Shown here piece by piece: positions 1-9,254 of a DNA stretch of 64,000 nt. Position 1 is the first letter of the stretch, and every line of letters begins with the position of its first letter. Source of the stretch: Marinitoga aeolica (GTDB lineage Bacteria; Thermotogota; Thermotogae; Petrotogales; Petrotogaceae); assembly GCF_029910535.1 (NCBI RefSeq), contig NZ_CP069362.1:1736001-1800000 (forward strand), written 5' to 3'. The notes beneath the pieces were generated by a model. It saw only the letters and a list, made by a program, of their open reading frames with translations, searched no databases and was not told where the DNA came from. Position numbers and translations under genes: made by a program.

Positions 1-1
1 G

Positions 2-889
2 TTTCCTCATCCCACAATGATATGTTCTGGATTGAATAATGCAGCATGGTGGATAAGAAATATTGATAAAAATAAATCTTTATATACTGCGATTTTATTG
101 GAGTATAATATTGGTTATTATTTTGAAGACTTATTTAAAATTTATAATTGGTTTGATACTATTTTTGATGTTTATTCAATTAATAATTATATTGGTTTAT
201 ATGAAATTTCAAGAATTGTGAATGAATTAAAAAATAATATAAATGTTGATAATAAATTTAATAAAGATTTTTATAATAGTTCAAATAAAAAACATATTAG
301 TTTTTTATTTAAGAATAATATTAACCAAATTATGACTATATTTGATTTCAATTTTCCAATAGTATTTTTATCAACATATTCAGCATTAATAGAAAAACCA
401 TATTTTACAAAGAGTCGGATTTTGAAAGTGATTTTTGAAGGAGATAAAGATAAAATCATTAAATACTTCTCAAATAATTATGAGAAGATGTATTTTTTTA
501 ACTTAATGCTATCTGAATTTAAGGTTAAAGAAATCGAGAAAAGGATAATGAATCCTAATGATTTCGAAAAGATAAAACCTGATGTATCTCCATTTTTCAT
601 ATCAAGAAAAAAACTCATCTTTAATCTTTTAAAAAATGCGAAAAAATTCAAGGAGTTTATTCTTAACTATTTCGAACTCAATGAAGAAGAAATGAGAACT
701 TTTGATATGTTTTTAAGAAATTGTGTTCGTTATGATATAAAATGGCCAATTACACCTTATCCTAAAGGGAAAGTTCGTGATTTTGCAATTAAATATGGTC
801 TTGGTCAAAAACGTGTTGCTTTAGGACATTATTCTTTTGAAGACAATGAAAGACTTTTTCTTGATTCTATTATTGAGAAGTTTTTATAA
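2..889 (+). CDS. Helical-repeat protein, paralogue of 5622-7052 (5' end outside window)
   Basis: I do not recognise a named family. The reading frame is open from base 2, so the gene starts before the window; the first ATG at 17 lies in the middle of the homologous protein at 5622-7052 and is not the start. What is present corresponds to roughly residues 181-476 of that paralogue. The two are almost base-for-base identical over about the first 480 bases and then diverge strongly, converging again at the C-terminal motifs RNCVRYDIKWPI and YSFEDNERLFLDSII. The composition (Asn, Lys, Phe, Tyr, many short amphipathic helices) suggests a TPR-like alpha-helical repeat protein. It sits convergent to a peptide-modification/export operon, so a peptide-sensing regulator of RNPP-like architecture is one possible role, but no helix-turn-helix is evident in the visible part. 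Function is inference. Confidence 0.75.
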   Translation, partial: FPHPTMICSGLNNAAWWIRNIDKNKSLYTAILLEYNIGYYFEDLFKIYNWFDTIFDVYSINNYIGLYEISRIVNELKNNINVDNKFNKDFYNSSNKKHISFLFKNNINQIMTIFDFNFPIVFLSTYSALIEKPYFTKSRILKVIFEGDKDKIIKYFSNNYEKMYFFNLMLSEFKVKEIEKRIMNPNDFEKIKPDVSPFFISRKKLIFNLLKNAKKFKEFILNYFELNEEEMRTFDMFLRNCVRYDIKWPITPYPKGKVRDFAIKYGLGQKRVALGHYSFEDNERLFLDSIIEKFL

Positions 890-1108: not shown

Positions 1109-1915
1109 TTAAAACCCATGAATTCCTTGTTTTCTGGATTTTGTTTCTAATAATTTAAATGAAATTATTCCTGTTATCAAATAAAATAAAGATAAAATTA
1201 ATAATATTATATATTCTGTTTTTATATCTATAATAGTATTTGTATTCATTAATAAGTAACGCATTATATCTAATCCCCAGCTAAATGGAAATAAATATGA
1301 TATCCACCTCAAAAATGCTGGTAAAACCGTTATTGGAAAAAACATACCTCCTATTAAAGGAGCGGCATTTCCCATTAAACTAACCAATTCATCCCCATCC
1401 TTAAATAATAAAGTTATTCCAAAAAAGAAAAAAACATATCCAAATGATGCTAACATAGAAATTATAAATACAGCTATTGCACCTAAAAAATTAATAATAT
1501 TAATTGTTGTTATATTTGATATTATTGCTAATATTATTATTGGTATTGATTCTATGGTTACTTTTAATATTCCCAATACAGACCATCCAAATATATAACC
1601 CAAAGGATTTATTGGCATCAAAAAAATTTCCTCCAATTGCCCTATTTTCATATGATGCCTTAATGTAAATATCACTCCCCACAATACTTCTATATAATTC
1701 CAATATGCTGCACCAATTAAAACATATCCGAATATATTTTTGGTATTGGTATTTCCATAAAAGAATTGCGTTAATCCGCTTTTTTCTCCGAAAAAATATA
1801 ATAAAAAAACAGGTATTATTGTTAATAATGGTGTAAAAAATGCCCCATACCAATCTATTCTATATTTTTTTGCTGTTAAAAAATTTGCTTTTGCAAGATA
1901 CAAACTATTTACCAT
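1109..1915 (-). CDS. ABC-2 type export permease (last gene of peptide operon)
   Basis: About 268 residues with six predicted membrane helices and a charged cytoplasmic N-terminus, the usual size and layout of an ABC-2 family permease. Cytoplasmic membrane protein, presumed to pair with the permease at 1909-2673 and the ATPase at 2670-3398 as a heteromeric exporter. The start is taken as the ATG at 1915 because an AGGTGAG ribosome site precedes it; an in-frame GTG at 1924 lies inside that site. The ATG overlaps the TAA of the upstream permease (ATGGTAA), showing tight translational coupling. Context (radical SAM enzyme and two small peptides in the same operon) suggests export of, or self-protection against, a modified peptide; substrate is inference. 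Confidence 0.82.
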   Translation of the reverse strand: MVNSLYLAKANFLTAKKYRIDWYGAFFTPLLTIIPVFLLYFFGEKSGLTQFFYGNTNTKNIFGYVLIGAAYWNYIEVLWGVIFTLRHHMKIGQLEEIFLMPINPLGYIFGWSVLGILKVTIESIPIIILAIISNITTINIINFLGAIAVFIISMLASFGYVFFFFGITLLFKDGDELVSLMGNAAPLIGGMFFPITVLPAFLRWISYLFPFSWGLDIMRYLLMNTNTIIDIKTEYIILLILSLFYLITGIISFKLLETKSRKQGIHGF

Positions 1916-2673
1916 GATTCCCACTCACCTTTTTCACGTGTATATCTTTCTACTTTGTTTAACATTAATATTCCTATAATTAAATATATTAAACTTATTA
2001 TAGTTAGAACTATTAGAAGAAATATATCCTCTTTACCTATAATACCTTTCTTTATTATATTTCTTCCTAAAGATATTAAATAAGTTAATGGAATTATATA
2101 GGATATCATTTTAATATATATGGGGTAATACTCTATAGAACTTGTCATGCCTGATAGTAAACCCACAAAATATTGTACTGCATAGTTCATACTTCCTATC
2201 TTTTTTTTCCATAATGCCAGTGCGGCAAAGAATATTGAAAAAAAGGTTATGTATATACCGCTCATCAATAATAGAATAAATATCCATATACTCATTTTTA
2301 TGGTTATTCCAGATATTGCAAAGAATATTAATGTAAATATGGTTAAATAAATATTTGTGAGAAAAGTATCAATACTTTTTGAAAATAAAAATTTCAACAA
2401 GGAGATAGGAGATATTATTATAGAAGTTAATGTACCTTCAGCTCTTTCTTCGCCAAACCCATCTCCTACTCCCCAAAAATATTGATTTAACCAATACCAT
2501 AATAATGTTCCTATTAATATACTTTCAGAAAAGTCAATTTTTCCAAATAATTTAGATGTAAATATATATGGCCCTATCATAAAAAACGGTGTTAATGCCA
2601 TATTTATCCATATGAACTTATATTTTTTTCTTATGAGCCAATCTTTTTTTACTAAAGTTAATAATTCTTTCAT
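1909..2673 (-). CDS. ABC-2 type export permease
   Basis: 254 residues with about six membrane helices, and a soluble loop after the first two helices carrying the charged stretch GDGFGEERAEGTL, which resembles the coupling-helix region of ABC-2 permeases (E-R/E-G-T-L). Its ATG overlaps the stop of the ATPase gene upstream and its own stop overlaps the next permease start, so ATPase and both permeases should be made in stoichiometric amounts. Two different permease chains with one ATPase is the arrangement of many bacteriocin or lantibiotic exporters and immunity pumps. I cannot name the substrate from sequence. Confidence 0.82.
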   Translation of the reverse strand: MKELLTLVKKDWLIRKKYKFIWINMALTPFFMIGPYIFTSKLFGKIDFSESILIGTLLWYWLNQYFWGVGDGFGEERAEGTLTSIIISPISLLKFLFSKSIDTFLTNIYLTIFTLIFFAISGITIKMSIWIFILLLMSGIYITFFSIFFAALALWKKKIGSMNYAVQYFVGLLSGMTSSIEYYPIYIKMISYIIPLTYLISLGRNIIKKGIIGKEDIFLLIVLTIISLIYLIIGILMLNKVERYTREKGEWESW

Positions 2674-3398
2674 GCCAATTCCTCACTTTTCACTATATCT
2701 TTAAAATATTCATAGATATTGTCATTTTCTTCTTTTATATTACCGAACTTTGTTTTTAATCTAAACACTCCTTCTTTTAGTAAATATATATTCGTATTTT
2801 TAGAAAAGCCATGAAGAATATGACTAATCATAAATATAGTTAAACCATCACTATTTAATTCGTTTAAATATTCTATCATTTCATATGTTGCTTCTGGATC
2901 AAGACCATTTAATATTTCGTCTAAGAATAATATTTTAGGTTCATGAATTAGTGCTTTACATAGCATTAGTTTTTTTCTCATTCCCGTTGAGAAATTTTCA
3001 ACTGGAGTATCTTTAAATTGATAAAGATTAAATTTATTAAGTAAAAATTCAATTCGTTCTTTTTTTATCTTCTTTTTCACTCCATAAATGCCACCAAAAA
3101 TATCTAAATTTTCGTAAGCTGTTAATTTCCAATATAAGCTCCTTTCATTGGTAAGAACCACACCTATTTCTTTTGCTAATTTTTTCCATTCTTTTTTTAC
3201 ATCTCGATTAAGTACTTTTATACTTCCTTCATCTGGTAATAATAAACCTATTGCAATTTTTAATAATGTGCTTTTTCCACTTCCGTTTTTACCTATAATT
3301 ACTGTAAAATCACCCTTATTAATGGAAAAGTTTATATCCTTCAAAACTTCTAAATTTTTAAAATTTTTCTTTAAATTTTTTCCTTCTATTATCTTCAT
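2670..3398 (-). CDS. ABC transporter ATPase, peptide export
   Basis: 242 residues, a complete ABC nucleotide-binding domain. Walker A is IIGKNGSGKSTLLK (about residue 36), the signature is FSTGMRKKLML (about 138), Walker B is ILFLDEILNGLD (about 158) and the switch His lies in MISHI (about 193). The signature has S-T-G-M where LSGGQ is usual, common in ABC-2 exporters. The ATG overlaps the TGA of the radical SAM gene (ATGA), so the maturase and the exporter are translationally coupled. Cytoplasmic, docking on the two permeases downstream. Confidence 0.9.
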   Translation of the reverse strand: MKIIEGKNLKKNFKNLEVLKDINFSINKGDFTVIIGKNGSGKSTLLKIAIGLLLPDEGSIKVLNRDVKKEWKKLAKEIGVVLTNERSLYWKLTAYENLDIFGGIYGVKKKIKKERIEFLLNKFNLYQFKDTPVENFSTGMRKKLMLCKALIHEPKILFLDEILNGLDPEATYEMIEYLNELNSDGLTIFMISHILHGFSKNTNIYLLKEGVFRLKTKFGNIKEENDNIYEYFKDIVKSEELA

Positions 3399-4687
3399 AA
3401 TATCACCTGATTTTTATATTTATAATATAGTTCTAAAATTTCTTCATATACTGTATCATGAAAGGCTTTCCAACAATCTTTTTTTGTTTTGTTTACATAA
3501 ACATTATATCTGCATCCACCGTTGCAAATTGGTAAATATTTACAATCTTCACATATTTTATCTGCGATATGGTTTTCTAACATTTGTGAATATTTTTGTA
3601 AAAATCTTTCTGGATTATTAATAAATTCATTATATGAGCAAATTTTAAATTCTTCTATACCTATACCAGATATACAATTATATAGATCACCATTAGGAGC
3701 TATTATAATATCACTTTCTTTATTATATGTACATGGCCAAACATTTAAGAAGTCTACTACATTTAATCCATTTGTTAAAATATTTTTTAGTGTTTCAATA
3801 TATATTTTACCATATACTTTTAAAGGAGGAATATTTTTTAATGTATAAAATGAAAATCCATCTGGATGACTTAATAATCCTATATTAAAAATAAATCTTT
3901 CTTTTAAAGTTTCAATACCAAATATTTCTATTAATTTTTTTATCATTTCCATATGTGTTTTAGAAAAATTAGCATTGTCTATCACACTATGCAAAACAAT
4001 AATTGTTGATGTTTCTCTTAATATATTTTTTATAGTATTAATAATATAATTCCATGTGTTGTTATATTTTTCCGACTTTCTTCTTGAATTATGAATTTCT
4101 TCAGGACCATCTAAAGTTATTTGAACAAATTTAATTTTATTCAATACTTCAAACATATCTTTTGAATAAGAAACTCCGTTTGATATTAAGTTAAAATTTT
4201 TTATAGGTAAATTTAAATATTCTGATTTTTCAACCATAGATTTAATATATTGTGGATATAGGGAAGGTTCTCCACCAAAAAAAGTTACTACTATATTTTT
4301 ACTCTTAAATAATTCATAAAGTAAATTCCATAACTCAATTCTTTTTTCTAAGTTTTGTGGTTTTTGATATCCTCTCTTATATGTATTTTGCTGCATGCAA
4401 TAACTACATTGTAGATTACAATTTAACGTAACAACATCGGTAATTGATAAAGTATTATTAGTATATTTTATTTTATTCATAATATATTTATATAAAAATT
4501 TTTCATTGAAATCTTTTTTTACCAGTATTCCTTCATCAATTAAAAAATCTATATTAGAATGATTTTTTTCAATATTTTTAATTACATCTGAATTAATTTC
4601 TACATAATTTCTGATCAACAAATTATAGTAAATTTCAATATTTTTCTTACGCTTATGAATTAAATATTTTGAAAATTTATATTCCAT
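3395..4687 (-). CDS. Radical SAM/SPASM peptide maturase
   Basis: 430 residues. The radical SAM cluster motif is CNLQCSYC (Cys90, Cys94, Cys97), followed by the GGEPSLYP S-adenosylmethionine-binding motif (about residue 148). A C-terminal SPASM domain with an auxiliary-cluster Cys set (CEDC, then PICNGGC, then a further Cys near 404) lies at about 378-405. The first 80 residues are a small non-catalytic domain of the kind that often binds the leader peptide. SPASM enzymes of this size modify ribosomal peptides (thioether, C-C or ether crosslinks). The gene lies 285 bases after a 29-codon ORF with two cysteines and couples to an ABC exporter, so that ORF is the natural substrate candidate. The crosslink chemistry cannot be predicted. 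The start has a TAGGAGGAAG-type ribosome site. Confidence 0.9.
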   Translation of the reverse strand: MEYKFSKYLIHKRKKNIEIYYNLLIRNYVEINSDVIKNIEKNHSNIDFLIDEGILVKKDFNEKFLYKYIMNKIKYTNNTLSITDVVTLNCNLQCSYCMQQNTYKRGYQKPQNLEKRIELWNLLYELFKSKNIVVTFFGGEPSLYPQYIKSMVEKSEYLNLPIKNFNLISNGVSYSKDMFEVLNKIKFVQITLDGPEEIHNSRRKSEKYNNTWNYIINTIKNILRETSTIIVLHSVIDNANFSKTHMEMIKKLIEIFGIETLKERFIFNIGLLSHPDGFSFYTLKNIPPLKVYGKIYIETLKNILTNGLNVVDFLNVWPCTYNKESDIIIAPNGDLYNCISGIGIEEFKICSYNEFINNPERFLQKYSQMLENHIADKICEDCKYLPICNGGCRYNVYVNKTKKDCWKAFHDTVYEEILELYYKYKNQVIL

Positions 4688-4950
4688 TTCTTCCTCCTAG
4701 TTTTTAAGTTTATTTTTTTAATAAAATAAAAATATTATAATCTAGTATTCTACAATTTTAAAAAGTCCAGAGATTACTATCCTAATGCATATGATATAAT
4801 TATAAATAAATCTAAAGATGAAAATAAATATTATTTAATTTAATTCTGATTTTATATTGTTTATATGAAAAACCTTTTTTTATTAAAAATTTTTTAATAA
4901 TAAATATTTAGAATATTTTTTAAGAAAACTCTTTATTGTATATATATAAG

Positions 4951-4966
4951 AAAGTCGGCCGACTTT
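4951..4966 (-). terminator. Palindromic hairpin between peptide gene and maturase
   Basis: A perfect 16-base palindrome, AAAGTCGGCCGACTTT, starts seven bases beyond the stop of the 29-aa peptide gene on the minus strand. There is only a weak T-tract after it. It could be a leaky terminator or RNA-stabilising hairpin giving more peptide message than maturase message, a common design in RiPP operons. That role is inference. Confidence 0.5.
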
Positions 4967-4972
4967 TTATCA

Positions 4973-5062
4973 TTATTGAGTTAAATCAGCACATCTTTGA
5001 CTTCTATTAGTACATCCACCTAACGGCATTTTTCCGGATATAATTCTTTTTAGAATATTCAT
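4973..5062 (-). CDS. Candidate RiPP precursor peptide, 29 aa, two cysteines
   Basis: A 29-codon ORF with a very strong ribosome site (GAAAGGAGGGC, correctly spaced) that would be missed by length cut-offs. The N-terminal part is basic and hydrophobic (MNILKRIISGKMPL, residues 1-14) and would serve as leader; the C-terminal part, residues 15-29, is small and polar, starting GGC with Cys17 and Cys24 six residues apart (CTNRSQRC), ending ADLTQ. It is the cistron before a radical SAM/SPASM enzyme and ABC exporter, after a good promoter. Seen: ORF, ribosome site, cysteine pair, context. Known: SPASM maturases act on short Cys-containing peptides. Inferred: this is the modified product, a bacteriocin or signalling peptide. 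I know of no exact family match. Confidence 0.72.
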   Translation of the reverse strand: MNILKRIISGKMPLGGCTNRSQRCADLTQ

Positions 5063-5108
5063 TTTTGCCCTCCTTTCGGTTATATTATCTTCTAGTACTA
5101 GATAATAA

Positions 5109-5118
5109 CAGCCGGCTG
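5109..5118 (-). other. GC-rich palindrome in the leader of the 29-aa peptide gene
   Basis: CAGCCGGCTG is a perfect 10-base palindrome in an otherwise AT-only spacer between the two small-peptide genes; a second pairing, TTATCT with AGATAA around CTAGTACTAG, follows at about 5084-5104. These may fold in the mRNA between the two peptide cistrons. No function can be assigned. Confidence 0.35.
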
Positions 5119-5209
5119 AAAAATTTTAATTTTAGTTTATAAACCACATTGTATTACAAAAGTGTCATATGTTATAATATTAATAAACAATCGAGTATAG
5201 AGCTATTTT

Positions 5210-5341
5210 TCATTCAAGAATTTCAATTTGAACTTGAGGATTAGTTGAATGAGTAGTTGAATTACTTTTATCATCACCACCATATACCATTGTTGAAGAT
5301 AATATTATGATTGCCATTATTAATATAATTATTTTTTTCAT
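5210..5341 (-). CDS. Small secreted peptide, 43 aa, first gene of RiPP operon
   Basis: A 43-codon ORF directly downstream of a consensus promoter, with a GGGGGGTG ribosome site. Residues 1-20 form a Sec-type signal peptide: Lys2-Lys3, an Ile-rich core, then SSTMVYG before a likely cleavage. The predicted mature part is about 22 residues, Asp/Ser/Thr/Asn-rich, with no cysteine, starting GDDKSNSTTHS and ending QIEILE. Its own signal sequence means it would leave through Sec rather than the ABC exporter. It could be an extracytoplasmic immunity peptide, a companion of the modified peptide, or a quorum-type signal read by the flanking helical-repeat proteins. Only the ORF, signal peptide and operon position are seen; the roles are inference. 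Confidence 0.7.
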   Translation of the reverse strand: MKKIIILIMAIIILSSTMVYGGDDKSNSTTHSTNPQVQIEILE

Positions 5342-5360
5342 TTTTTCACCCCCCTCATTT

Positions 5361-5388
5361 ATCTTAGCATTTCTCATATGACTGTCAA
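5361..5388 (-). promoter_or_regulatory. Sigma-A promoter of the peptide operon
   Basis: On the minus strand TTGACA (5388-5383), a 16-base spacer and TAAGAT (5366-5361) lie about 20 bases before the start codon of the 43-aa peptide. This is a near-consensus housekeeping promoter, so the peptides should be strongly expressed unless repressed. Confidence 0.75.
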
Positions 5389-5621
5389 GTGTTTCTTTTG
5401 TAGCCTGAAATTAGCTTTTTATAAACATTTTAAACCGCAATATCATTTTTAATAAATGGTAATATTTTAGACATATAACTTCAACTTCTGAAATTCTTTA
5501 TTTTGGATATTTATATATTTTTAAGTAATTGTTCTGTAACAAAATGTAACTTAACCTTAATTAAATATCATTCTTTAAGTTTTTGTTTTGATATTTATAA
5601 TTTTTATTTAAGAGGTGTTTT

Positions 5622-7052
5622 ATGAAACATTATTCCTTAAATAAATTAATTGATATTATAGAATATGGAGCTTTTTCTAAACCTATTGTGAATTATATTT
5701 TAACTAATACTGAGGATGAAGATTTGGTTTATTATCTTTTATGCTTAAAATCCATTTGGAAAAACAAACACAGAGAAGCTTTTAAATATGCCGATCTCGT
5801 TACTACTACTACTACTACTACAATTTTAAATGAACTTGCTACTCTTGAAAAAATTAGTATTTTATTTAATAATAATAAAATTAAAAAAGCTAATATTGAA
5901 TTAAGAAAGATTAAAAATAATATTCAATCTCTTAATAAAAAAGCAAGAAAAATTATTATTCCTGCTTTGAGATTTATGGAAATAAGATTTTCAAATTTAA
6001 TTGATGAAAATCTTGTTAGATATTGGAGTGCAGAGTATGAAAGTAGTTATGCACAGAAATCATTATTAAAGTATTCTGAAGCCAGAAAATATTTAAATAA
6101 TAAAGATTTTCATAAAGCTTTTGATTTATTTATTGAAGGGTTTAATTTTGCAAAAAGGTTTCCTCATCCCACAATGATATGTTCTGGATTGAATAATGCA
6201 GCATGGTGGATAAGAAATATTGATAAAAATAAATCTTTATATACTGCGATTTTATTGGAGTATAATATTGGTTATTATTTTGAAGACTTATTTAAAATTT
6301 ATAATTGGTTTGATACTATTTTTGATGTTTATTCAATTAATAATTATATTGGTTTATATGAAATTTCAAGAATTGTGAATGAATTAAAAAATAATATAAA
6401 TGTTGATAATAAATTTAATAAAGATTTTTATAATAGTTCAAATAAAAAACATATTAGTTTTTTATTTAAGAATAATATTAACCAAATTATGACTATATTT
6501 GATTTCAATTTTCCAATAGTATTTTTATCAACATATTCATCATTAATAGAAAAACCATATTTTACAAAGAGTCGGATTTTGAAAGTGATTTTTGAAGGAG
6601 ATAAATATAAAATCATTAAATATTTCTCAAGTAATTATGAGAAGATGTACTTTTTTAATTTAATGCTCTCAAATTTTCAAGAAGAAAATTTGATAAATAA
6701 TATTAATAATAAGAACTATGACTTTCTAAATTCTACCGGAAGTAGTCTATTTTATATCGCGAGAAAAAATTTAATTTTAAAGTTATTAAAGAATATAAGA
6801 AATAAAAAAGAATTTATTGTTCATTATTTTAATTTATCTGATAGCGAAAAAAATATTTTTGATATATTTTTAAGAAATTGTGTTCGTTACGATATTAAAT
6901 GGCCTATTATTCCAAAAGTTGATGGTGATTTGAAATCTTTCGCTTTAAAATATAATATTACTCAAAAACGTGTTGTTTTAGGATATTATTCTTTTGAAGA
7001 TAATGAAAGACTTTTTCTTGATTCTATTATTGGGAAGTTTTTGAAAATATAA
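5622..7052 (+). CDS. Helical-repeat (TPR-like) protein, putative peptide-operon regulator
   Basis: 476 residues, family not recognised. It is predicted all-helical, soluble, Asn/Lys/Phe/Tyr-rich, with repeat-like helical pairs (for example AFKYADL, KANIELRKI, AFDLFIEGFNFAKR), consistent with a TPR-like scaffold. An (ACT)6-ACA tract at 5802-5822 encodes seven threonines after residue 60. The C-terminus (LKSFALKYNITQKRVVLGYY, about 436-455) looks like a small helical module that could bind nucleic acid or a partner. The ATG is preceded by AAGAGGTG. It is divergent from the peptide operon (281 bases between starts), and a paralogue lies at its far end. Large TPR proteins beside small secreted peptides are typical peptide receptors, so a sensor or regulator is likely but unproven. 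Confidence 0.7.
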   Translation: MKHYSLNKLIDIIEYGAFSKPIVNYILTNTEDEDLVYYLLCLKSIWKNKHREAFKYADLVTTTTTTTILNELATLEKISILFNNNKIKKANIELRKIKNNIQSLNKKARKIIIPALRFMEIRFSNLIDENLVRYWSAEYESSYAQKSLLKYSEARKYLNNKDFHKAFDLFIEGFNFAKRFPHPTMICSGLNNAAWWIRNIDKNKSLYTAILLEYNIGYYFEDLFKIYNWFDTIFDVYSINNYIGLYEISRIVNELKNNINVDNKFNKDFYNSSNKKHISFLFKNNINQIMTIFDFNFPIVFLSTYSSLIEKPYFTKSRILKVIFEGDKYKIIKYFSSNYEKMYFFNLMLSNFQEENLINNINNKNYDFLNSTGSSLFYIARKNLILKLLKNIRNKKEFIVHYFNLSDSEKNIFDIFLRNCVRYDIKWPIIPKVDGDLKSFALKYNITQKRVVLGYYSFEDNERLFLDSIIGKFLKI

Positions 7053-7315: not shown

Positions 7316-9254
7316 CCTGACTTTGACACAGCTTTTATGATTTAACCTCTCAAAAAGAGAAATAATAAGAAAAATAGCAATTGTTAACTTTTTGTAAAAA
7401 GAGAAATTAGCCACACACCTCCCTCTTTTTGGCTATTCATGCGTGTTTTAGAAGTATTTTTCTTTAAACTCATCTAAATCCATCATTTTTTTAGGTTTTT
7501 CTATTTCTAGTATTTTTAATATTGATTTTTGAAAGTCATTTAAATTGGCTCTTAATGCAAATAATTTATCTTTTAATCTCACTTCTGAGTATTCCATATT
7601 TTTAATAGCGTTTCTAATTTTTTCATGTGAGTATTCAATGTTATTTTTTTCTAGTTCTAATTCTAACGTTCTTTGCATTATATAGGATATGAAACTCATT
7701 ACTATATGACCTTTTATTCTTTTAGGAGTCCAATGAAATATAGGTCTTGTTTCTAGATAATTTTTTAATGTTCTAAATGTTTCTTCTACTTTCCATAATG
7801 TATGATATTGTTCTAATATTTGTTTTGGATTTAATTTTGTATTTGTCATTATTCCATAATATCCATCATATTTTTCATCATTTTGTATTTTTTCATTATC
7901 TAATATATAATTCTGTTTATTTTCTTCTTTTAAATATTTTTTAGCTCCTCTTTTATTCATCGAATCTATATTATTATTTTCAAGCATTTTCTTTGCTTTT
8001 TCAATTAATCTAAGTCTATCTGCTCTATCTTTTTTAGCTTTTTCTTCTGAGTATATTATGAGTAATCTATTATTATCGTATTGAACTTCTCTATATTTTA
8101 TTCCTTTTGCTATTTCTATGAATTCTCCATCAAATATATTTACTTTTTTTAATTGTTTAATTGATTTACCAACTATAAATTCATAATTAGAATTTTCTAC
8201 TACTTCTATATTTTTTTTACTCATCATTCCTCTATCTGATACTACTATTACTTTCCCTAATTGATATTCTTTTTTCATTGTTTCAACTGCATCTTTAAAT
8301 GTATGTCCTTCAAATGTATTACCTGGATATATATCAAAACTCACAGGCATTTTATCTTGATCTATTGACATACCTAATACTATTTGTGATTCATTAAATT
8401 TCTTATCTTTTGAATATCCCATTTGTAATAACTCATTTGTTTGTTGTGTTTCAAATGCTAATGTTGTTACATCGTAAAATACTAAATCTACTGTTGTATT
8501 AAACAAATTTATTCTTTGATTATACATATGTTTTTCTATACCTTCTTTATTTTCTGCTAATACATCTAATGTTCTATACAACCAATGCAACATAACTTCA
8601 TCTTTTTCCAATTCTTTTCCTTCACTAACTTCTACAGAACTATATCCTAAATATTCTAAATTATTAAATATTCCTAATTTACTCTTCGGTTCTAGTATCC
8701 TGTTCATCACCATTATTTTTAATATTTCTTCTACATCATATTTTATATTTCTTTCTAACCTTTCAAAATATCTTTTCATCTCATATCTTTCAAATATCTT
8801 ATTTACTATTAATCGTATTCCGTAATTCTTTTTATCTGGAGCATCTTTAATTTCATTAGTATTAATATAATTTTTTAAACCAAATATTTGAATTAATTTA
8901 TTTACAATATTCTCTGCTTCCTCTTCACTAAATGCATCAACTCTACCTAAATTAGCAATAGTTCTTTGTTTAATCTTTCCGTTTTTACGATAACTTTCAA
9001 CAATTCTTAAATATTCAACCCCTTTATTATTTTTAACAGTTCTCAAAAACATTAAAAAACCTCCTTGATTTCATAATGCTATTACCATTATACCACAAAA
9101 ATCATTATAAAATCAAGTATATAACAACAATATTAAAATTATTTGTGTCACTACAAAAATTTTTCAACCCCCATTTTTTACCATTTTTATCGTCGAAAAA
9201 CCGCATTCTACCGTTTCATTTCCTCTAAAATCACAAAATTACTGTCAAACTCGG
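7316..9254 (-). mobile_element. IS1634-family element, copy A
   Basis: About 1.94 kb bounded by imperfect inverted repeats: CCTGACTTTGACA at the left and the reverse complement of CCGAGTTTGACAGTA at the right. It contains one transposase gene on the minus strand. The left end lies inside the duplicated fbpC fragment, the right end inside the remnant of a fatty-acid gene. Ends were placed by comparison with copy B (16510-18448), which is in opposite orientation; they may be off by a few bases, and no target-site duplication is evident. Confidence 0.8.
7448..9052 (-). CDS. IS1634-family DDE transposase (copy A)
   Basis: 534 residues. The DDE triad can be placed at YDVTTLAFET (about residue 194), VVSDRGMMSKKN (about 273) and WKVEETFRTLKNYLETRP (about 425); the YDVTTL motif is characteristic of the IS1634 family. 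It is close to full length for the family and has no internal stops, so it may be active. It is very similar to, but clearly not identical with, copy B at 16713-18335 (many silent and conservative changes), meaning the two copies were not made in the very last event. ATG start with AAGGAGGTTTTTTA upstream. Confidence 0.92.
   Translation of the reverse strand: MFLRTVKNNKGVEYLRIVESYRKNGKIKQRTIANLGRVDAFSEEEAENIVNKLIQIFGLKNYINTNEIKDAPDKKNYGIRLIVNKIFERYEMKRYFERLERNIKYDVEEILKIMVMNRILEPKSKLGIFNNLEYLGYSSVEVSEGKELEKDEVMLHWLYRTLDVLAENKEGIEKHMYNQRINLFNTTVDLVFYDVTTLAFETQQTNELLQMGYSKDKKFNESQIVLGMSIDQDKMPVSFDIYPGNTFEGHTFKDAVETMKKEYQLGKVIVVSDRGMMSKKNIEVVENSNYEFIVGKSIKQLKKVNIFDGEFIEIAKGIKYREVQYDNNRLLIIYSEEKAKKDRADRLRLIEKAKKMLENNNIDSMNKRGAKKYLKEENKQNYILDNEKIQNDEKYDGYYGIMTNTKLNPKQILEQYHTLWKVEETFRTLKNYLETRPIFHWTPKRIKGHIVMSFISYIMQRTLELELEKNNIEYSHEKIRNAIKNMEYSEVRLKDKLFALRANLNDFQKSILKILEIEKPKKMMDLDEFKEKYF

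Follow-up and report, generated by a model that had tools for sequence, protein, structure and literature searches.

A conserved GCx3SQRC precursor and its radical SAM/SPASM maturase in Thermotogota and Bacillota, with a putative TPR/signal-peptide front end

Which peptide does the operon at 1109-5388 of this Marinitoga aeolica locus make, how might it be modified, and what could switch the operon on? The window analysed here is the whole stretch of 64,000 nucleotides, taken from a genome that consists of one 2.44-Mb contig. An earlier note had described positions 1109-5388 as a complete RiPP-like operon containing a promoter, a 43-aa signal-peptide ORF, a 29-aa two-cysteine precursor, a radical SAM/SPASM enzyme, an ATPase and two permeases. 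Inspection of the sequence confirmed all of these features, each on the minus strand (Table 1), including the strong ribosome site that precedes the 29-aa ORF (AAAGGAGGG) and the coupling of the last four genes, which overlap by 4, 4 and 16 nt. Taken by itself, the promoter match carries no significance: the consensus was found at 70 sites, against 74 expected. That we are dealing with a real RiPP operon is, for practical purposes, certain.

Table 1. Features of the operon and its surroundings (window coordinates), and precursor orthologs by genome
Feature	Position or genome	Strand	Basis or remark
Sigma-70-like promoter TTGACA-16-TAAGAT, extended -10 TG	5361..5388	-	identical in second TPR-SIG module of the same genome
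SIG1, 43-aa ORF, signal peptide and short tail THSTNPQVQIEILE, putative secreted signal peptide	5210..5341	-	divergent pairing with TPR genes
Leader element in SIG1/precursor gap, dyads CAGCCGGCTG (5109-5118) and TCTAGTACTAGA (5091-5102)	5091..5118	-	
RiPP precursor, 29 aa, MNILKRIISGKMPLGGCTNRSQRCADLTQ, GCx3SQRC at residues 16-24	4973..5062	-	conservation, selection, Bacillota homologues
Perfect palindrome AAAGTCGGCCGACTTT, directly 3' of precursor	4951..4966	-	500 shuffles gave none of equal strength
Radical SAM/SPASM maturase, 430 aa	3395..4687	-	Pfam Radical_SAM 54.5 bits; TIGR04085 48 bits; AF2 and Foldseek
ABC transporter ATPase	2670..3398	-	PF00005 115 bits
ABC-2 type permease 1	1909..2673	-	ABC2_membrane 27.4 bits
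ABC-2 type permease 2, alternative start ATG at 1915 possible	1109..1924	-	ABC2_membrane_3 31.9 bits
TPR1, 476-aa tetratricopeptide-type protein, divergent from SIG1, putative peptide receptor/regulator, no internal HTH	5622..7052	+	AF2; family Pfam matches
TPR2, 3' part of second TPR copy (whole gene G000:C1:1735465-1736886)	1..889	+	fronts different RiPP operon left of window
Precursor ortholog MNILKRIVSGKIPLGGCTNRSQRCADLTQ	G004		
Precursor ortholog MNVLKRIVSRSIPLGGCTNRSQRCAVITP	G043		
Precursor ortholog MNVLKRIANHSIPLGGCTNRSQRCAVVTP	G093-95		
Precursor ortholog MNILKRLINGNVPLGGCINRSQRCASIEISKK	G050, 073, 075, 076		

In a search of 60 relatives, the 29-mer gave four strong matches besides the window itself, and complete or near-complete orthologs of the maturase were found in nine further genomes, together with one copy carrying a stop codon and two short fragments. 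A small ORF lies upstream of each non-fragment maturase copy. The earlier note had proposed that the 29-mer is the precursor, that co-occurrence with the maturase would support this, and that a lack of conservation would speak against it. The ORF is present upstream of every complete orthologous maturase in Thermotogota and is conserved beside all of them, its identity remaining at 69-100% while that of the maturase, which ranges from 44 to 97%, drops to 44%. Furthermore, the core PLGGC[TI]NRSQRCA is nearly invariant in Thermotogota, and codons 13-25 show 0 nonsynonymous vs 3-6 synonymous changes in differing pairs, a comparison that excludes pairs with G050, the most distant genus. Judged by these codons, the precursor core is under strong purifying selection. 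No NCBIfam or Pfam model claims the precursor, in agreement with the view that it does not resemble known precursor families. It might be objected that short ORFs are common in AT-rich DNA, and that the 29-aa ORF arose by chance while the true substrate is encoded elsewhere. However, this idea is already contradicted by the conservation of the ORF in four Thermotogota families and of its motif in Bacillota, always beside the maturase, and by the purifying selection on the core; we consider it extremely improbable. On comparative evidence, this small ORF does encode a RiPP precursor. In one locus (L026, in G076) the maturase gene is broken by a TGA and the precursor is intact.

The enzyme possesses a CX3CX2C motif (CNLQCSYC) and the C-terminal cysteine set reported before, which comprises the seven SPASM cysteines, and its TIGR04085 score exceeds the cut-off of 27 bits. 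These features make it a radical SAM/SPASM protein, and the short precursor gene conserved next to it is what is expected of a RiPP maturase. Residues C90, C94, C97, C319, C338, C379, C382, C388, C392 and C405 are invariant in nine sequences. The AF2 model (pLDDT 88, pTM 0.89) aligns over its full length to SuiB, CteB and TigE in Foldseek, TigE being the best by TM-score; the best PDB match by sequence is CteB (1.5e-20). The N-terminus of the model has strands and helices in the order of an RRE, within the whole-chain alignment to SuiB and CteB. The maturase is not assigned to a family by any NCBIfam or Pfam model. Against the NCBIfam equivalogs CefB, Clo7bot, PapB, SCIFF and TIGR04463 it scored 71-147 bits, reaching none of the cut-offs of 340-600 (the best score was 146.7 bits vs a cut-off of 600), and its relatives likewise remained below them.

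Does this family occur outside Thermotogota? A scan of genome contigs with the window maturase as a single sequence gave no match. When 84,980 species genomes were scanned with an alignment instead, maturases came up in Ezakiella, Fenollaria timonensis, a Clostridiales and an Erysipelotrichaceae, which are 30-34% identical over the alignment. Each of these four Bacillota loci contains a small ORF (..YSGCTCRSQRCTS, ..YGGCTCRSQRCAN, ..CSGCVSGGQRCLN.. and ..DYACTIRTQRA), and the precursors end in [GA]Cx3[STG]QR[CA]. In a maximum-likelihood tree the Bacillota and Thermotogota maturases form one clade (100/99), apart from other SPASM enzymes. The maturase is rare in Bacillota, with 2/391 and 3/316 genomes in two samples, counts that include two broken or cut copies. 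Matches on plasmids were distant generic SPASM proteins and were set aside. By homology, then, the GCx3SQRC maturase-precursor family extends beyond Thermotogota to Bacillota.

The Bacillota sequences also bear on the chemistry. Cys17 is present in 9/9 distinct precursors and, together with Gln22 and Arg23, is constant across all precursors of both phyla, whereas Asn19 and Cys24 vary. This makes Cys17 and the S-Q-R stretch the most likely sites of the modification. The reach into Bacillota, which the earlier note missed, qualifies the two-cysteine core proposed there: Cys17 is kept in Bacillota too, Cys24 not in every case. In the mechanism we propose, the maturase would bind the basic leader of the precursor (..LKRI..) via a putative N-terminal RRE-like domain, and a 5'-deoxyadenosyl radical would join Cys17, and usually Cys24, to a carbon of the S-Q-R stretch through a thioether. 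Such a link, from Cys to an alpha or other carbon, defines sactipeptides and ranthipeptides. We consider thioether cross-linking of the precursor fairly probable. The S-Q-R stretch might instead undergo another radical modification (epimerisation, a carbon-carbon cross-link or a cyclopropane), with the two cysteines forming a disulfide or binding metal. TigE being the best fold match, the Bacillota precursor that has no second cysteine, and the conservation of Gln-Arg as strong as that of Cys17 would suit such a modification, but the retention of Cys17 in every distinct precursor and the fact that the top PDB sequence match, CteB, is a thioether enzyme speak against it, and we regard it as unlikely. 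Among thioethers, the beta-thioether of the streptococcal NxxC RiPPs (PMC13361665) comes to mind, as these also have a short core with Asn and Cys. However, N19, invariant in Thermotogota, is not kept in the Bacillota relatives, which have C, I or S at this position, and for this reason an Asn-Cys beta-thioether was dropped. After formation of the thioether to the S-Q-R stretch, the leader would be cut near Gly-Gly/Cys by an unlinked protease, and the ABC-2 exporter would pump the product out. No leader protease was seen in the operon, and double-glycine (C39) processing was rejected, there being no C39 peptidase domain in seven genomes with operons of the window type (class A).

What could control the operon? 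The earlier note was right about the RiPP genes but did not see that the 43-aa ORF is one half of a divergent TPR/signal-peptide pair found ahead of many different RiPP operons. As its distribution indicates, this ORF pairs with the divergent TPR protein of a multi-copy Thermotogota family, rather than with the RiPP genes. A divergent signal-peptide ORF, 100-420 bp away, was found for 22/29 TPR genes vs 0/188 control genes in a matched scan, and for 52/72 TPR genes in an enlarged set; these SIG calls are based on our own hydrophobicity and ribosome-site thresholds, not on SignalP, with cleavage judged by eye, and the counts are not independent events because we set the thresholds and the genomes are related. 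TPR1 has no Pfam or NCBIfam match of its own, and its AF2 model (pLDDT 89.4, pTM 0.91) is an all-helical TPR solenoid. The family is present in 54/103 Thermotogota genomes, often in multiple copies (as many as 16 matches per genome, fragments among them). TPR_12 was detected in 9/37 members and Cro/C1 HTH_26 in 5/37, one of these above the Pfam cut-off. In some members the HTH is inserted between the two halves of the TPR region; it is absent from the 474-484-aa members, the window copy included. No TPR match was found in phages, and a TPR search of 291 Bacillota genomes, run without a positive control, was empty. Beside TPR1, a 534-aa ORF (window 7448-9052, minus) reads like an IS1634/IS4-type transposase.

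The TPR genes are also linked to RiPP operons of other types. Among the matches listed for 13 near-complete genomes, three of which are Thermotoga genomes that are near copies, 27/51 TPR copies lie within 10 kb of a SPASM gene; 20,000 circular shifts gave a mean of 1.5 and a maximum of 11. In the gene maps the arrangement is TPR <-> SIG - precursor(s) - SPASM - ABC exporter, and the payload precursors behind the pair differ widely (MxWIE.. Cys-rich, MEFLN.., CGVGGVSNCC, GCGG.. and others). Further classes of Cys-rich SPASM precursors with the same front end were seen at L092, L056, L093, L098, L089, L091, L090, L096, L094, L100 and L102. Immediately to the left of the window is another RiPP operon of a different type, missed by the earlier note (L045:1355-7184; G000:C1:1729355-1735184). 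It has the precursor MQGVKVIKKPKSKLSSIFTNNDGCTNTNCNCNGK, its own SPASM enzyme, two ABC exporters and a TPR/SIG front end almost identical to that of the window. In G043 both operon types occur in tandem, and the g24 operons have RiPP genes without TPR or SIG. A class A operon of Thermotoga (L053:8415-8865) has a broken TPR remnant and a lengthened SIG ORF, with an intact TPR gene ~8 kb off. Window positions 1-889 and 6158-7052, the 3' parts of two TPR genes, form a near-identical direct repeat that flanks the operon, which thus sits between duplicated front ends.

The two TPR-SIG modules of this genome show 3 differences in ~1.37 kb outside two islands. The first island, with 16 differences in 72 nt, spans the last eight SIG codons and the 48 nt that follow them; beyond it, 82 nt of the leader ahead of the precursor are again identical. 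The second island takes in roughly the last 150 residues of the TPR protein. This pattern would fit ligand-receptor specificity, and it would equally fit gene-conversion edges. Covariation between SIG tail and receptor was found in 1/6 blocks (p=0.03) in one group, and in the other the tail did no better than the signal part; being weak or no better than common ancestry would give, it is not counted as evidence.

The 2.44-Mb genome has three copies of the dyad CAGCCGGCTG (window 5109-5118; G000:C1:1734952 and 2382990), all of them within TPR-SIG modules, in the gap from SIG to the first precursor. Three congeners have 13 sites (7 in G002, 4 in G003, 2 in G001), in or near TPR-SIG modules as assigned by coordinates or leader sequence. 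The sequence upstream is conserved up to the dyad and diverges beyond it, and often a second dyad follows that changes in sequence and keeps its symmetry (TCTAGTACTAGA, CCAGTACTGG, TTCTGGCGCCAGAA). The leader element formed by these dyads is a possible RNA hairpin or operator. Rfam gave no match in 4600-5700. In several genomes the class A precursor is directly followed by a perfect palindrome, which differs in sequence from genome to genome (AAAGTCGGCCGACTTT, AGAAGGCGGCCGCCTTCT, TAGACCCGGGTCTA), and other perfect dyads of unlike sequence flank class A precursors. Strong RNA hairpins were rejected for the palindromes, whose folding z-scores are unexceptional except at precursor B. Likewise, TTGTAATACAA was rejected as a specific operator, as it was enriched little, if at all, relative to the reversed control.

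Control of the operon by the TPR/SIG pair appears probable from the gene arrangement. SIG1 would be secreted by Sec and trimmed, and its tail would be re-imported and read by the TPR protein, which would turn on the operon when cells are dense or stationary, as Rgg/SHP does with radical SAM RiPPs in streptococci. The window TPR protein has no HTH and would therefore act via a partner protein. By analogy, such peptide sensing is quite possible, and we propose it tentatively. Alternatively, with the RiPP operon as described, SIG1 may be a small peptide that is secreted or sits in the membrane, such as an immunity peptide or a co-exported companion, and the TPR protein a scaffold or a repressor sensing something else. 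The HTH missing from the window TPR, the lack of an RRNPP fold match, the inconclusive covariation and the class A operons that have neither TPR nor SIG all favour this alternative. On the other hand, SIG pairs with the TPR gene and not with any one RiPP type, its tail stands out as divergent between two modules that are otherwise identical, and TPR relatives do contain an HTH; the alternative is thus, in our opinion, rather doubtful. The joint explanation, a SPASM RiPP operon whose thioether peptide is exported and whose TPR/SIG front end is regulatory, seems reasonably likely.

On a broader scale, it is quite possible that Thermotogota use a phylum-wide intracellular peptide-receptor signalling that evolved apart from RRNPP, in which TPR proteins, many with an internal HTH, are each paired with a secreted peptide and serve as a reusable front end for interchangeable radical SAM RiPP payloads, including the new cross-phylum GCx3SQRC family. 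This small RiPP family is common to deep-branching thermophiles and human-associated Bacillota, and its core motif is so tight that the cross-link can be tested in E. coli. A pairing like that of TPR and SIG, resembling cell-to-cell signalling, would be new for Thermotogota. If it is a pheromone system, peptide quorum sensing by cytoplasmic TPR receptors would extend beyond Bacillota, and each TPR/SIG copy, many per genome, would point to a possible unexplored RiPP cluster.

As to known systems, the earlier note had suggested a T. maritima locus as a relative, and an orthologous operon with the precursor MNVLKRIANHSIPLGGCTNRSQRCAVVTP was indeed found in a Thermotoga genome, with a HicAB-like pair ~3 kb downstream. 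Frock et al., in AEM in 2013, are said to have described the TM1316 locus of T. maritima, whose peptide region is reportedly known from transcriptomics. By its position and neighbours, including the HicAB-like pair expected there, we tentatively take the ortholog locus to be the TM1316 region; the TM1316 peptide is reported to be 31 aa long, and the first ATG of the ortholog gives 29 aa. The T. maritima ortholog of the window operon is thus probably the TM1316 peptide region. We know of no structure, family definition or TPR/SIG link from the work on TM1316, and this stationary-phase peptide locus would now gain a probable chemistry and a probable switch. The maturase resembles those of SCIFF (CteB), PapB, Clo7bot and CefB in its radical SAM core and seven-Cys SPASM domain, and possibly in an RRE-like N-terminus, and differs from them in its NCBIfam scores below the cut-offs and in the motif of its precursor.

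With regard to the front end, RRNPP(A) systems (Rap/Phr, PlcR/PapR, AimR) consist of a TPR receptor and an adjacent Sec-secreted propeptide of 10-100 aa (PMC10075063, PMC9765709). At 476 aa, TPR1 falls within the receptor range of 250-500 aa, which its relatives of 520-585 aa exceed, and 52/72 TPR genes have an adjacent ORF with the size and Sec-type signal of such a propeptide. The HTH, absent only in Rap among RRNPP receptors, is internal in TPR1 relatives and missing in the window copy. By homology and fold TPR1 does not group with them: its PDB sequence matches include no RRNPP entry (Rap, Rgg, NprR, PlcR, PrgX, AimR), and its best 50 Foldseek matches are generic TPR proteins, with no RRNPP protein among them. 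Both surveys treat Bacillota and neither mentions Thermotoga, and our literature search found no paper covering both RNPP and Thermotogae. In streptococcal RaS-RiPPs, Rgg/SHP, an HTH-TPR receptor with a small peptide gene, fronts many radical SAM RiPP operons (PMC13361665), just as a receptor-like TPR gene and a small peptide gene precede varied radical SAM RiPP operons here. Unlike Rgg, the Thermotogota TPR proteins are longer (475-585 aa), have an internal rather than N-terminal HTH, are accompanied by Sec-type signal ORFs and show no detectable homology to it. As an analogy of arrangement, the system described here comes closest in function to the streptococcal radical SAM RiPPs that Rgg/SHP controls.
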